NCBI GenBank assembly: GCA_009663185.1
Contig: VJZX01000002.1
Location: forward strand, 1 to 64,000
Direction: 5' to 3'
DNA from: Isoptericola halalbus
Lineage (GTDB): Bacteria; Actinomycetota; Actinomycetes; Actinomycetales; Cellulomonadaceae
Length of the DNA stretch: 64,000 bases
Of the stretch, positions 16,367 through 21,342 are shown in pieces (the first letter of the stretch is position 1; every line of letters starts with the position of its first letter). Under the pieces are notes generated by a model. The model saw only the letters and a program-made list of their open reading frames with translations, searched no databases and was not told the origin of the DNA. The position numbers were made by a program, and so were the translations under genes.

Positions 16367-17584
16367 TCAGATCCCCGGCAGCGCCAGCATCTGGTCGAGA
16401 GCGACGCGCGCCCAGTGCGCGTCGTCGGGGTCGACGACGATCCGGTTGACCACGCGGCCCTCGACGAGGGACTCCATGGCCCACACGAGGTGGGGCAGGT
16501 CGATCCGGTTCATCGTGGAGCAGAAGCACACCGTCGAGTCGAGGTAGTGCACCTGCTTGTCCGGGTGCGCGTTCGCGAGCCGGCGCACCAGGTTGAGCTC
16601 CGTGCCGATCGCCCACGACGACCCCGGGGCCGCTGCGTCGAGCGCCTTGATGATGTACTCGGTCGAGCCGACCATGTCCGCGGCCGTGACGACCTCGTGC
16701 TTGCACTCCGGGTGCACCAGGACGGTGACGCCCGGCACCGCGGCGCGGATCTCGGTGACGTTGCGCTCCGAGAACCGGCCGTGCACCGAGCAGTGCCCGC
16801 GCCACAGGATCATGCGGGCGTCGCGCAGCTGCTGCTCGGTCAGGCCGCCCATCGGCTTGCGCGGGTCGTAGACCACGCAGTCGTCGAGGCTCATGCCGAG
16901 CTGCAGGACGGCGGTGTTCCGCCCCAGGTGCTGGTCAGGCAGGAAGAGCACCTTGCCGGAGTCGGAGCCGCCGGTCGCCGCGTTAGCCCGGTCGAAGGCC
17001 CAGCGGAGTGCGACCTGCGCGTTCGACGACGTGCACACCGTGCCGCCGTGACGACCCGTGAACGCCTTGATCGCCGCCGAGGAGTTCATGTAGGTGACCG
17101 GGACCGTCTCGCCGGCGACGCCGACGTCCTCGAGCACGGCCCACGCCTCCTCGACCTGGGCGATCGCCGCCATGTCCGCCATCGAGCAGCCCGCGGCGAG
17201 GTCGGGCAGGACGACCTGCTGGGAGTCCGAGGTGAGGATGTCCGCGCTCTCGGCCATGAAGTGCACGCCGCAGAAGATCACGAACTCGGCCTCGGGCCGC
17301 GCGGCGGCCTCGCGCGCGAGCTTGAACGAGTCGCCCGTGATGTCCGCGAAGTCGATGACCTCGTCGCGCTGGTAGTGGTGACCGAGGACGAACGCGCGCT
17401 CGCCGAGAGCCGCGCGTGCGGCGCGGGCCCTGTCGACGAGGTCCGGGTCCGACGGCGAGGGGAGCGCCCCCGTGCACTCGACGCCCCGCTCGGACGCGAG
17501 ATCGCGGCCCTGGCCGAGCAGCAGCAGCGCCGAGGGCGCGGGCTCGGCGAACGTGGCGTCGTTCAGCAATGTGGTCACCTGCAC
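16367..17584 (-). CDS. nadA: Quinolinate synthase A
   Basis: A [4Fe-4S] enzyme of NAD biosynthesis that condenses iminoaspartate with dihydroxyacetone phosphate. The 405 residues include LGHHYQRDEVIDFADITGDS near the start and cluster cysteines in PDLAAGCSMAD, VHPECKHEVV and the C-terminal STVCFCSTMNRI. Substrate motifs TYMNSSAAIKA and PDQHLGRNTA are present. No nadB or nadC is adjacent. The neighbourhood instead supplies Fe-S and sulfur-handling proteins (erpA, tusA, a desulfurase homologue), which fits an Fe-S-dependent enzyme. Confidence 0.95.
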   Translation of the reverse strand: MQVTTLLNDATFAEPAPSALLLLGQGRDLASERGVECTGALPSPSDPDLVDRARAARAALGERAFVLGHHYQRDEVIDFADITGDSFKLAREAAARPEAEFVIFCGVHFMAESADILTSDSQQVVLPDLAAGCSMADMAAIAQVEEAWAVLEDVGVAGETVPVTYMNSSAAIKAFTGRHGGTVCTSSNAQVALRWAFDRANAATGGSDSGKVLFLPDQHLGRNTAVLQLGMSLDDCVVYDPRKPMGGLTEQQLRDARMILWRGHCSVHGRFSERNVTEIRAAVPGVTVLVHPECKHEVVTAADMVGSTEYIIKALDAAAPGSSWAIGTELNLVRRLANAHPDKQVHYLDSTVCFCSTMNRIDLPHLVWAMESLVEGRVVNRIVVDPDDAHWARVALDQMLALPGI

Positions 17585-18222: not shown

Positions 18223-18573
18223 ATGACCGACACCACCGAGATCGCCACGCACGGCGTGACCCTCACCGAGGTCGCGGCGGGCAAGGTCCGCAGCCTTCTT
18301 GAGCAGGAGGGCCGCGACGACCTGCGCCTTCGCGTCGCCGTGCAGCCCGGCGGCTGCTCCGGCCTGATCTACCAGCTGTACTTCGACGAGCGCATTCTCG
18401 AGGGCGACGCCCTGCGGGACTTCGACGGCGTCGAGGTCGTCGTCGACCGCATGAGCGTGCCGTACCTCGAGGGCGCGACGATCGACTTCGCGGACACGAT
18501 CGAGAAGCAGGGCTTCACGATCGACAACCCCAACGCGGGCGAGTCCTGCGCCTGCGGCGGCTCCTTCGGCTGA
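18223..18573 (+). CDS. erpA: A-type iron-sulfur cluster insertion protein
   Basis: 116 residues of the HesB/IscA/ErpA family, which bind and deliver [2Fe-2S]/[4Fe-4S] clusters to target enzymes. The three conserved cysteines are in VQPGGCSGLIYQLYFD and the C-terminal ESCACGGSF (C-x-C). A strong GGAGGAAG site precedes the ATG. In mycobacteria the equivalent Rv2204c lies near ctaC in the same way. Plausible clients in this window include NadA and the Rieske protein QcrA. Confidence 0.93.
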   Translation: MTDTTEIATHGVTLTEVAAGKVRSLLEQEGRDDLRLRVAVQPGGCSGLIYQLYFDERILEGDALRDFDGVEVVVDRMSVPYLEGATIDFADTIEKQGFTIDNPNAGESCACGGSFG

Positions 18574-18669: not shown

Positions 18670-18951
18670 TCAGCTCGCTCGCAGGCGGACCGTGAGCGCC
18701 CAGTGCTCCGGGCTGCCGTCGTCGGGCACGACGTGGCGCTCGCCGGTCGTGACGTGACCGCGCATGCGCGCCCACGCCGGCACGTCGTGGCGGGCCGCCG
18801 GATCGGTGGACAGGACGACCACGAGCGTGCCGGCCGGCAGGTCGCGCGCGCGGGCGGCGAGGCGGATGACCGGGAGGGGGCAGCGCAGACCGCGCGCGTC
18901 GACGACCTCGGTGGCGTTGAATTCCGTGGCGTCCGGCCGCGCGTCGGTCAC
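18670..18951 (-). CDS. TusA-family sulfur carrier
   Basis: 93 residues with the TusA/SirA fold. VVDARGLRCPLPVIRLAARARDL carries the persulfide-accepting cysteine in the CPxP motif, followed by GTLVVVLSTDPAARHDVPAW. TusA proteins accept sulfane sulfur from a cysteine desulfurase and pass it to thiolation or cofactor pathways. The GTG start overlaps the stop of the desulfurase-like gene by GTGA, so the two are translationally coupled. Some actinobacteria are annotated with both domains as one fused protein. Unlike its partner, this protein keeps its catalytic residue. Confidence 0.88.
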   Translation of the reverse strand: MTDARPDATEFNATEVVDARGLRCPLPVIRLAARARDLPAGTLVVVLSTDPAARHDVPAWARMRGHVTTGERHVVPDDGSPEHWALTVRLRAS

Positions 18952-20111
18952 AGCCCGCCCACCCCGAGCATCTCGCGGACGCGCGCGACGGCGTCGGGCA
19001 GCACCGCCAGGAGGCGGTCGACGTCCTGCTCGGTCGTCGACCGGTCGAGCGCGATGCGGACGTTGCCGTGCGTCAGGACACCCATGGCCGCCAGCACGTG
19101 CGACGGCTCGAGCGTGCTCGCCGTGCAGGCCGACCCCGAGCCGACCCCGATCCCGGCACGGTCGAGCTCGGTGAGCAGCGCCTCGCCGTCGACGTAGAGG
19201 AACGAGAACGTGGCGACGTGAGGGAGTCGGGCGTCCGGGTCCCCGACGACCTCGACGTCGGGGATGGTGGTGACGGCGCCCCGGACCCGGTCGACCAGCG
19301 CGCGACGCCGCGCGTCCTCGGCCACGCGGTCGGCCTCGACCGCCTGGAGCGCGACGGCGGCGGCGAACGCGGCCGGGACGCTCACCCCGCCCGGCGCCCA
19401 CGGCTCGGGATCCTCGGGGCCCGTCGGGACGAGCCGGACCCGCTCGCGCGCCGCGAGCACGCCCACGCCCGCCGGGGCGCCCCAGTCTGCCGGGTCGGCC
19501 GCGAGCAGGTCCCAGGCGGGAGGGACGGCGGCATGGCCGAGGCTCGCCCCGGCGTCGACCAGGAGCGGAACCCCCGCGGTCCGGGCCGCGGCGTGGACCT
19601 GCTCGACCGGCTGAAGCGTGCCCACCTCACCGTTGGCGTGCTGCAGGGCCGCCAGGGCCACCCCGGGGGAGGCGACGGCGTCGGTCATCGCCTGGGCGTC
19701 GACGCGGCCGAACCGGTCGACCGCGACGTCGACGCGGCGCCCGCCGTGCATCGTCGCCGCCGCCTGCGCGGCGTGCAGGACGGCGGCGCGCTCGACCGCG
19801 CCGACGACGACGTCCACGCCCGCGCGACGGCGGCCCGCCGCAGCGGCCAGGACGGCGGCGTGGAGCGCCGTCGGGTGGCTGTGGGTGAACCGCACCTCCT
19901 CGGTGCGGGCGCCGAGGACGGCCGCCGCGGCCTCGCGCGCGCCGTCGAGCAGGGCCGCGGCGCGGCGGCCCTCGGTGTGGAGACGGCGAGGGTCGGCCCA
20001 GCCGTCGTCGAGCGCCTGGAGGAACGCCTGGCGGGCCAGCGGGTGCCAGGGCGCCCGTCCGCCGTTGTCGAGGCGCACGCGTGCGGGTGCGGGCGGGGTG
20101 GTGTGCGTCAC
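18948..20111 (-). CDS. Cysteine desulfurase-like protein lacking the PLP lysine
   Basis: 387 residues with the overall NifS/IscS layout: RLDNGGRAPWHP, VRFTHSHPTALH, QHANGEVGTLQPV, VDAGASLGHAAV, the Cys loop GSGSACTASTLEPSHVLAAMG and NVRIALDRSTTE. The active cysteine and C-terminal Arg are kept. However, the Schiff-base segment (IscS SGHKIYGPKG) reads DPADWGAPAG, the PLP-stacking His in the EH motif is Arg, and the phosphate-loop TSGATES is THSHPTALH. The whole protein contains no lysine, so it cannot hold PLP as an internal aldimine. It overlaps tusA by GTGA. It may be a pseudo-enzyme acting as a persulfide or scaffold partner; canonical desulfurase activity is not expected. Confidence 0.8.
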   Translation of the reverse strand: MTHTTPPAPARVRLDNGGRAPWHPLARQAFLQALDDGWADPRRLHTEGRRAAALLDGAREAAAAVLGARTEEVRFTHSHPTALHAAVLAAAAGRRRAGVDVVVGAVERAAVLHAAQAAATMHGGRRVDVAVDRFGRVDAQAMTDAVASPGVALAALQHANGEVGTLQPVEQVHAAARTAGVPLLVDAGASLGHAAVPPAWDLLAADPADWGAPAGVGVLAARERVRLVPTGPEDPEPWAPGGVSVPAAFAAAVALQAVEADRVAEDARRRALVDRVRGAVTTIPDVEVVGDPDARLPHVATFSFLYVDGEALLTELDRAGIGVGSGSACTASTLEPSHVLAAMGVLTHGNVRIALDRSTTEQDVDRLLAVLPDAVARVREMLGVGGL

Positions 20112-20418
20112 ACGGTCTCCCGGTCGTGGTCGAGATGCTCCGGGAGGCGAGCACGACGGCGGTGCCGAGCCTCCCACCTACGATGCTGCCACCCTCGCTG
20201 GGCATCGTCGGCACCGAGGTTCTGACACCCCGTTGGCATGTGTGGTGAACAGCGGCGACGTCGGCGTCGGGGTGCGGATCTCGTCACGCAGGAACGGGGG
20301 GATTCTGGCGTCGAACTCGTGAAGGGCGCGATAGGCTGCATCCCATCGAGGACGAAGGTCCTGCCCGCGCGCCCTGAGTAGGTGGTCTGCGGGACGGACG
20401 TGACGTGAAAGGCCCCCC
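20112..20418 (+). other. Intergenic region upstream of ctaC
   Basis: 307 bp between the divergent desulfurase-like gene and ctaC with no supportable coding frame. It should hold both promoters. A weak -10 candidate TAGGCT (20332-20337) faces ctaC; no clear -35, riboswitch or terminator was recognised. The AAAGG at 20408-20412 is the ctaC ribosome binding site. Confidence 0.5.
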
Positions 20419-21342
20419 TTGCACTCGAAGCCCCCCACCCGCACCCGGCGGCGGGTCCTGCTGCGGACGACGGCGCTCAGCGCCGTCGTCGCGCTGCTGG
20501 CCGCCGGCTGCGCCAGCGAGACCGTCCAGCGTGGATACCTCCCCGGCTATGGCGACGGGGAGGTGACCAACCAGACCGAGCGAATCACCAACCTGTGGGT
20601 CGGCTCCTGGATCGCCGCTCTCGCCGTCGGCGTGATCACGTGGGGCCTGATGCTGTGGAGTGTCGCCGCGTACCGCAAGCGCCGCGACGACCACCAGCTC
20701 CCGGTGCAGACGCGCTACCACATGCCGCTCGAGATCATGTACACGGCCGTGCCGATCATGATGGTGCTCGTGCTCTTCTACTACACCGACCGCGACACGG
20801 ACGCCCTGCAGGACACGAGCGCCCAGCCGGACGTGAGGATCCAGGCCATCGGCAAGCAGTGGAGCTGGGACTTCAACTATGTCGACGACCAGGTCTACGA
20901 CACGGGCCAGCACCTGCTCGACGTCGGCGGCCAGACCGCCGAGGAGACGGTCGACGGCGCGCCGGGCACGTCCGAGCAGCTGCCGACGCTCTACCTGCCG
21001 GTCGGCGAGACGATCGAGTTCTCGCTCGACTCGCGAGACGTCATCCACTCGTTCTGGATCCCGGCATTCCTGTACAAGCAGGACATGATCCCGGGCCGGA
21101 CCAACACGTTCCAGGTGACGCCGACGCGCGAGGGCACGTACGCCGGCAAGTGCGCCGAGCTCTGCGGCGAGTTCCACTCCGGCATGCTCTTCAACGTCAA
21201 GGTGGTCGACCGCGCCGAGTACGACGCGCACATGGACGACCTGCGCGCCGCCGGCCAGACCGGTGAGCTCGGCATGGACCTCAACCGCCAGCAGCGCGAC
21301 TACGAGCGGTACCCGAGCACCACCGAGGAGGCCGAGCACTGA
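20419..21342 (+). CDS. ctaC: Cytochrome c oxidase subunit II
   Basis: A 307-residue lipoprotein subunit of the aa3 oxidase carrying the CuA electron entry site. The signal peptide ends in a lipobox LLAAGC; two transmembrane helices follow (about 55-77 and 95-118). The periplasmic cupredoxin domain has [20 protein letters not shown] and the CuA ligands in [12 protein letters not shown]. The start is a TTG preceded by AAAGG with 6-nt spacing; the basic [12 protein letters not shown] begins the signal peptide. ctaD starts at the base where ctaC ends. Confidence 0.95.

Follow-up and report, generated by a model that had tools for sequence, protein, structure and literature searches.

The window, by which we mean the whole 64,000-nucleotide stretch that was analysed, encodes a NifS/IscS-type cysteine desulfurase homologue that lacks the PLP lysine and whose reading frame overlaps that of a TusA-type sulfurtransferase. 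We asked what such a protein might still do, for TusA or otherwise, once its PLP site is gone. The features on which the answer depends are as follows.

18948..20111, minus strand: lysine-less NifS/IscS-type cysteine desulfurase homologue, 387 aa (translation; Aminotran_5; NifS; AF2 model)
18670..18951, minus strand: TusA-type sulfurtransferase, 93 aa (sequence; PF01206, 58.4 bits, cut-off 28.6)
18880..18882, minus strand: acceptor cysteine of TusA (LRCPLP), matching Cys19 of E. coli TusA (sequence)
19485..19496, minus strand: DPAD (residues 206-209) replacing SGHK, residue 209 being the IscS Lys206 position (sequence, alignment)
19788..19790, minus strand: Arg108 at the IscS His104 position (alignment)
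19860..19886, minus strand: THSHPTALH (residues 76-84), the remodelled PLP-phosphate loop (alignment)
19125..19127, minus strand: Cys329, the mobile-loop persulfide cysteine (IscS Cys328), kept in 115/115 lysine-less orthologues, truncated L041 left out
19056..19058, minus strand: Arg352, the substrate-carboxylate arginine (IscS Arg354), kept in 115/115
20112..20418, no strand: intergenic region between the desulfurase homologue and divergent ctaC (sequence; ctaC divergent in 56/60 loci)
20419..21342, plus strand: ctaC, aa3-type cytochrome oxidase subunit II, a conserved neighbour (NCBIfam NF050117, 350.5 bits, cut-off 250)
18223..18573, plus strand: ErpA-type Fe-S insertion protein, a convergent neighbour (ErpA, 115.2 bits, cut-off 117; TIGR00049, 117.3 bits, cut-off 58.8)
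16367..17584, minus strand: nadA, quinolinate synthase, a neighbour (TIGR00550, 293.6 bits, cut-off 262.9)

Translation of the minus strand bore out the description given in the initial annotation, that of a NifS/IscS-type protein in which none of the 387 residues is lysine. The frame opens with a GTG at 20111, five bases downstream of a GGGAG, and its end holds the tusA start in a GTGA overlap at 18951-18948. This overlap with an intact TusA gene had also been claimed and was found as described, the CPLP cysteine lying in an RCPLP acceptor motif (CPxP); the encoded TusA was the sole PF01206 match in a profile search of the genome. Likewise, the substitutions pointed out at the start were all present, namely DPAD for SGHK, Arg for the stacking His (VER replacing VEH) and the THSHPTALH loop, as were the cysteine loop GSGSACTASTLEPS, the catalytic cysteine and the substrate arginine. 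Ala189 occupies the IscS Gln183 position. Profile scores confirmed erpA and nadA near by, with erpA on the opposite strand, and ctaC, on the opposite strand as well, starts 307 bases from the desulfurase homologue.

The window protein scored 126.6 bits against Pfam PF00266 (Aminotran_5, aminotransferase class V; cut-off 21.5), and its best NCBIfam score, 213 bits for NifS (TIGR03402), fell far under the cut-off of 530.75, which a lysine-keeping orthologue (L137, 270.1 bits) and a NifS-like paralogue (388.5 bits) missed too. Its AlphaFold2 model, built on an alignment of 45 sequences, had a mean pLDDT of 94.0 and a pTM of 0.92, with confidence dropping most at the N-terminal end (73) and near the cysteine loop (residues 321-340, block means of 78 and 72). 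Foldseek matched this predicted model with a query TM-score of 0.89 each to M. tuberculosis IscS, A. fulgidus IscS and the IscS of the IscS-TusA complex 3lvj, and the TM-score of 0.89 to 4isy places it in the fold-type I aminotransferase-V fold. The top match by sequence among solved structures was A. fulgidus IscS (4eb5, E 5.8e-49). Measured against an active group I desulfurase, the window protein has the fold, the loop cysteine and the substrate arginine, and lacks Lys206 (Asp209), His104 (Arg108), Gln183 (Ala189) and a score above the NifS cut-off. Its partner reached 43.4 bits with NF001423, the NCBIfam TusA equivalog (cut-off 78); by these profiles it belongs to the TusA family, and equivalog status with E. 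coli TusA is unsupported by the NF001423 score.

Lysine in close relatives had been named in the initial annotation as the observation that would speak against it. Among the 58 relatives' genomes searched, the gene was present in all 17 of the same genus and lacked the PLP lysine in 17 of 17. Sequencing error or a one-off loss was therefore rejected, and the loss, as judged from these aligned genes, is site-specific and not due to chance. Elsewhere in the family, 14 of 18 genomes had an orthologue at E < 1e-60, and matches were found in 103 of 396 genomes of the order (E 1e-48) and 194 of 394 genomes of the class (E 1e-55). After exclusion of 21 paralogue loci by name and collapse of identical rows, 169 distinct orthologues remained, which were split by lysine presence into 53 with and 116 without (truncated L041 is counted in the 116 and left out of counts of 115). 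Since the rows were sorted on the lysine, this split is by itself no evidence; the evidence lies in how it falls relative to the order. All 53 lysine-keeping orthologues lay outside the window's order and 114 of the 116 lysine-less ones inside it, placement being by search kinship or record name. Two lysine-less rows are of unclear place: L169, which has no named order, and L160, whose record is named Sphaerisporangium cinnabarinum ATCC 31213 and whose gene is 94% identical to a Cellulosimicrobium funkei gene, so that it is probably mislabelled. A further 26 class orthologues, from genomes picked for low scores and thus not yielding a rate, included 16 without the lysine (families f41, f44, f50, f51, f54 and f57) and 10 that keep it; cysteine and arginine were found in 26/26 and TusA in 20. 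Lysine loss with retention of the cysteine is thus also seen beyond the window's order. One of these families also supplied a match, L275 (G440, family f44), with one in-frame TGA within the desulfurase match.

At the lysine position, the 116 lysine-less orthologues have Asp (72), Ser (32) or another residue (12), and at that of His104 they have Arg (77) or still His (34). The Gln183 equivalent occurs in 0/116 of them and in 46 of the 53 lysine-keeping orthologues; missing from 7/53 of the latter as well, Gln183 is, on this alignment, no sharp marker. His104 and Ser203 were kept in 53/53 lysine-keeping orthologues, and paralogues used as a control kept the HK motif in 13 of 13. The initial claim that every PLP-holding residue is changed was thus right for Lys206, His104, Gln183 and the loop but wrong for Asp180 (D186) and Asn155 (N160), whose equivalents are present and invariant in all 116 lysine-less orthologues. 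Total lack of lysine, by itself, was set aside as a striking feature. The family is very lysine-poor, with lysine at 0.31% of residues in lysine-keeping orthologues when the catalytic one is not counted, the catalytic lysine being the only lysine in 16 of those 53, and no lysine at all in 87 of the 116 lysine-less genes, so zero lysines are unremarkable once the catalytic lysine has been lost. Since lysine-less members of Kineosporia type, and many of Terrabacter and Pedococcus type, keep His104, with Arg or Gln in the Knoellia and Janibacter types, the alignment suggests that the lysine was lost first and His104 later.

The retention of D186 and N160 bears on whether the protein is still a desulfurase that binds PLP non-covalently. 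In the available part of PMC9978102, E. coli IscS K206A, H104Q and Q183E are inactive, K206A still binding some PLP and carrying out slow, partial chemistry. This residual binding, together with the invariance of D186 and N160, makes non-covalent PLP conceivable. However, according to the same partial source IscS requires both His104 and Gln183 for activity; the window protein has lost the two and its phosphate loop is changed, and we regard continued desulfurase activity as highly improbable.

The same substitutions could instead have produced a remodelled pocket, in which Arg108, Asp209, His79 and Asp206, along with the retained Asp186, Asn160 and Arg352, would bind a small molecule such as cysteine persulfide or the persulfide of a low-molecular-weight thiol for attack by Cys329, making the protein a persulfide-dependent sulfurtransferase. 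All 72 rows with Asp at the lysine position have Arg in place of His104 (in related lineages and perhaps reflecting one event), the Ser203 equivalent has become Asp in 100 of 116 and the Gly75 equivalent His in 67 of 116 lysine-less orthologues, and the carboxylate-binding Arg is invariant. Nevertheless, the Arg/Asp pair may merely fill an empty site, and since 33 of the 116 lysine-less rows combine His104 with Ser or Ala at the lysine position, there is no single new pocket. We consider this proposal unlikely.

Outside the class, the lysine was kept in 20 of 20 related genes fetched (12 with TusA near), and lysine is therefore ancestral. Its loss amounted to one change in a 105-row tree, on a branch with support of only 53, to four changes in an 87-row tree that adds 25 of 26 low-scoring class orthologues, at least three of them forced by well-supported branches, and a 57-row tree gave six changes in lysine state. 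An AU test of one clade, and thus of a single origin, returned p 0.05 with long branches in play. Taken together, these trees indicate that the lysine was probably lost repeatedly, a single origin being less likely. We also compared dN/dS by the Nei-Gojobori method in hand-picked close pairs, one of which (L103/L104) was saturated at a dS of 2.2. Values were 0.09-0.28 in 17 lysine-less pairs versus 0.11-0.24 in 7 lysine-keeping pairs. The gene is under purifying selection, and the constraint is similar with or without the catalytic lysine. A decaying, functionless gene would fit the lack of a close match in most genomes of the order (those beyond the 103 of 396 at E 1e-48), but decay is disfavoured by these ratios, by the invariance of the Cys, Asp, Asn and Arg, and by frames that are open and without stops among the order matches listed; we give it next to no weight.

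Sixty loci from across the class were fetched with flanks. In 56 of these, ctaC stood divergently next to the desulfurase homologue; one (L141) had it on the same strand and in three it was not seen, and erpA was near in 55. Since lysine-keeping and lysine-less genes occupy this same slot beside ctaC and erpA, they are orthologues. Examination of the neighbourhood (ctaC, erpA, nadA) gave no function for the desulfurase homologue, and we know of no functional link between ctaC and the pair formed by the desulfurase homologue and TusA (CD-TusA).

Each of the 53 distinct lysine-keeping genes has TusA next to it (19 as fusions), as do 101 of the 116 distinct lysine-less genes (3 fused). Comparison of homologues, which had been proposed as a check, thus did reveal a conserved form without the PLP lysine, usually accompanied by TusA and comprising 114 orthologues in the order. 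The remaining 15 of 116 had no recognisable TusA beside them, and of these only L041 runs into the end of its contig; the other TusA-less loci extend at least 1265 bases downstream of the gene, and, among the rows listed, 13 TusA-less genes other than L041 keep the cysteine. A genome-wide search of 19 genomes found no TusA in two, G617 and G453 (the latter at 73% completeness). Strict TusA dependence is therefore unsupported, and since members without TusA keep the cysteine, TusA is not the sole partner everywhere. Among TusA rows above 45 bits, to which all TusA residue counts refer, the acceptor Cys was kept in 98/98 from lysine-less and 47/47 from lysine-keeping loci, and the equivalents of Cys19, Asp45 and Asp51 were found in 98/98 rows of lysine-less loci. 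Positions in E. coli TusA and IscS beyond those stated in the papers are presumptive, having been placed by eye. Two departures were seen in family f9. In the genomes of L233, L234, L236 and L237, TusA occurs elsewhere, in open frames of 833-911 aa that are perhaps multidomain proteins. In G552, a second gene copy (L107) has the cysteine loop CGCTCGRHPSGPC, perhaps a metal site, and its neighbouring TusA is without the CPxP cysteine.

Contrary to the initial annotation, which knew of no role described for such a form, lysine-less homologues have been reported in archaea. In the portion of PMC7585200 available to us, A. fulgidus IscS has Asp in place of the PLP lysine, shows no desulfurase activity and provides a Cys ligand, and Methanosarcina acetivorans IscS1 has no PLP lysine either. 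The window protein is likewise of NifS/IscS type without this lysine, and, as in A. fulgidus IscS (4eb5, 4eb7, 4hvk), Asp stands in its place and the loop cysteine is kept. In contrast to the window protein, both of these are archaeal and have been studied with IscU, not TusA, and A. fulgidus IscS retains the His and the TSGATE loop in our alignment. Lysine-keeping orthologues in the same gene slot indicate that the bacterial loss is separate from the archaeal one. The window protein might nonetheless be an Fe-S assembly scaffold of the A. fulgidus type, its loop cysteine serving with SufU or ErpA as a cluster ligand and not as a sulfur donor. Such a role would suit the members without TusA and is consistent with 4eb5 being the best solved-structure match, with the frequent proximity of erpA and with the presence of one IscU-type protein in the genome. 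However, this only IscU-type (NifU_N) match lies on contig C18 beside sufS, so that no IscU partner is encoded alongside the window gene; the linked partner is instead TusA, with its acceptor Cys conserved throughout, and erpA is on the opposite strand. We rank this ligand role after a relay or docking role and think it improbable.

The genome also encodes lysine-bearing candidate sulfur donors, namely SufS (SGHK, 553.9 bits, above its cut-off), a SufS-like protein (SGHK) and the NifS-like paralogue (TGHK). In serine palmitoyltransferase, SPTLC1 is the non-catalytic partner of SPTLC2. By analogy, the window protein could pair with an active desulfurase in a mixed dimer, itself playing no catalytic part, in keeping with the presence of lysine-bearing paralogues and with the dimeric nature of IscS-type enzymes (PMC2854127, partial text). 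However, among group I paralogues with the lysine, the nearest is only 40% identical and on another contig, and we find a mixed dimer quite unlikely.

We favour a relay or docking role since the parts that were kept serve to hold and pass on a persulfide, those that were lost serve to produce it from cysteine, and lysine-bearing candidate donors exist. The observed basis of this reading consists of orthology by synteny, loss of the Lys, His and Gln, retention of the Cys, Arg, Asp and Asn, purifying selection, linkage to TusA and the predicted fold. We see about an even chance that, in this CD-TusA pair found class-wide in actinobacteria, the desulfurase lost its PLP site and today serves TusA as a PLP-free relay for persulfide or as a docking subunit. 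The window protein, with its IscS fold and mobile cysteine loop, would fold without PLP; Cys329 would take up sulfane sulfur, whether from SufS, from the canonical NifS-like paralogue or from a small-molecule persulfide, and the Cys329 persulfide would be handed to the TusA cysteine and from there to a presumed final target. In the E. coli IscS-TusA complex (3lvj), the loop cysteine lies ~4 A from TusA Cys19, as given in the available part of PMC2854127. The window protein shares the predicted fold of that IscS and has a TusA partner with the Cys19, Asp45 and Asp51 equivalents but, unlike E. coli IscS, is without Lys206, His104, Gln183 and presumably the bound PLP (PMC2854127, PMC9978102, both as available in part). 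The sulfur-relay pseudo-enzyme coupled to TusA that was first suggested is accordingly upheld in its loss of the PLP site, its conservation in the order and its coupling to TusA, but not as a purely TusA-dependent protein (15/116 without adjacent TusA). A broader and more tentative proposal, which we doubt on balance, is that in Actinomycetes the CD-TusA beside ctaC gave rise, several times and each time independently, to PLP-free sulfurtransferases that depend on persulfide and that gave up desulfurase chemistry but kept the cysteine and mostly TusA, the empty site being refilled (in the window's lineage by the Arg/Asp pair), possibly for sulfur from small-molecule persulfides.

A search of the open-access literature, with subscription papers outside its scope and hence weak as evidence of absence, found no account of the CD-TusA pair or of bacterial lysine-less desulfurases. 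Whereas lysine-less archaeal IscS was already known, a form from bacteria that is coupled to TusA, spans an order and probably arose more than once may be new. The CD-TusA of Streptomyces, Nocardioides, Actinoplanes and Motilibacter are orthologues of the window pair, likewise with ctaC near and TusA adjacent or fused, but differ from it in keeping the lysine (SAHK, SARK or SAQK), VEHS and SGT, and are presumably active desulfurases. Lysine-keeping and lysine-less orthologues in one gene slot, with and without TusA, form a natural series in which two tasks of a desulfurase, the making of a persulfide and its delivery, come apart. This series makes testable the Cys-loop protein's own role, the identity of TusA's feeder and the reason for cytochrome oxidase adjacency. 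The annotation of these genes as desulfurases may be wrong in many actinobacteria.
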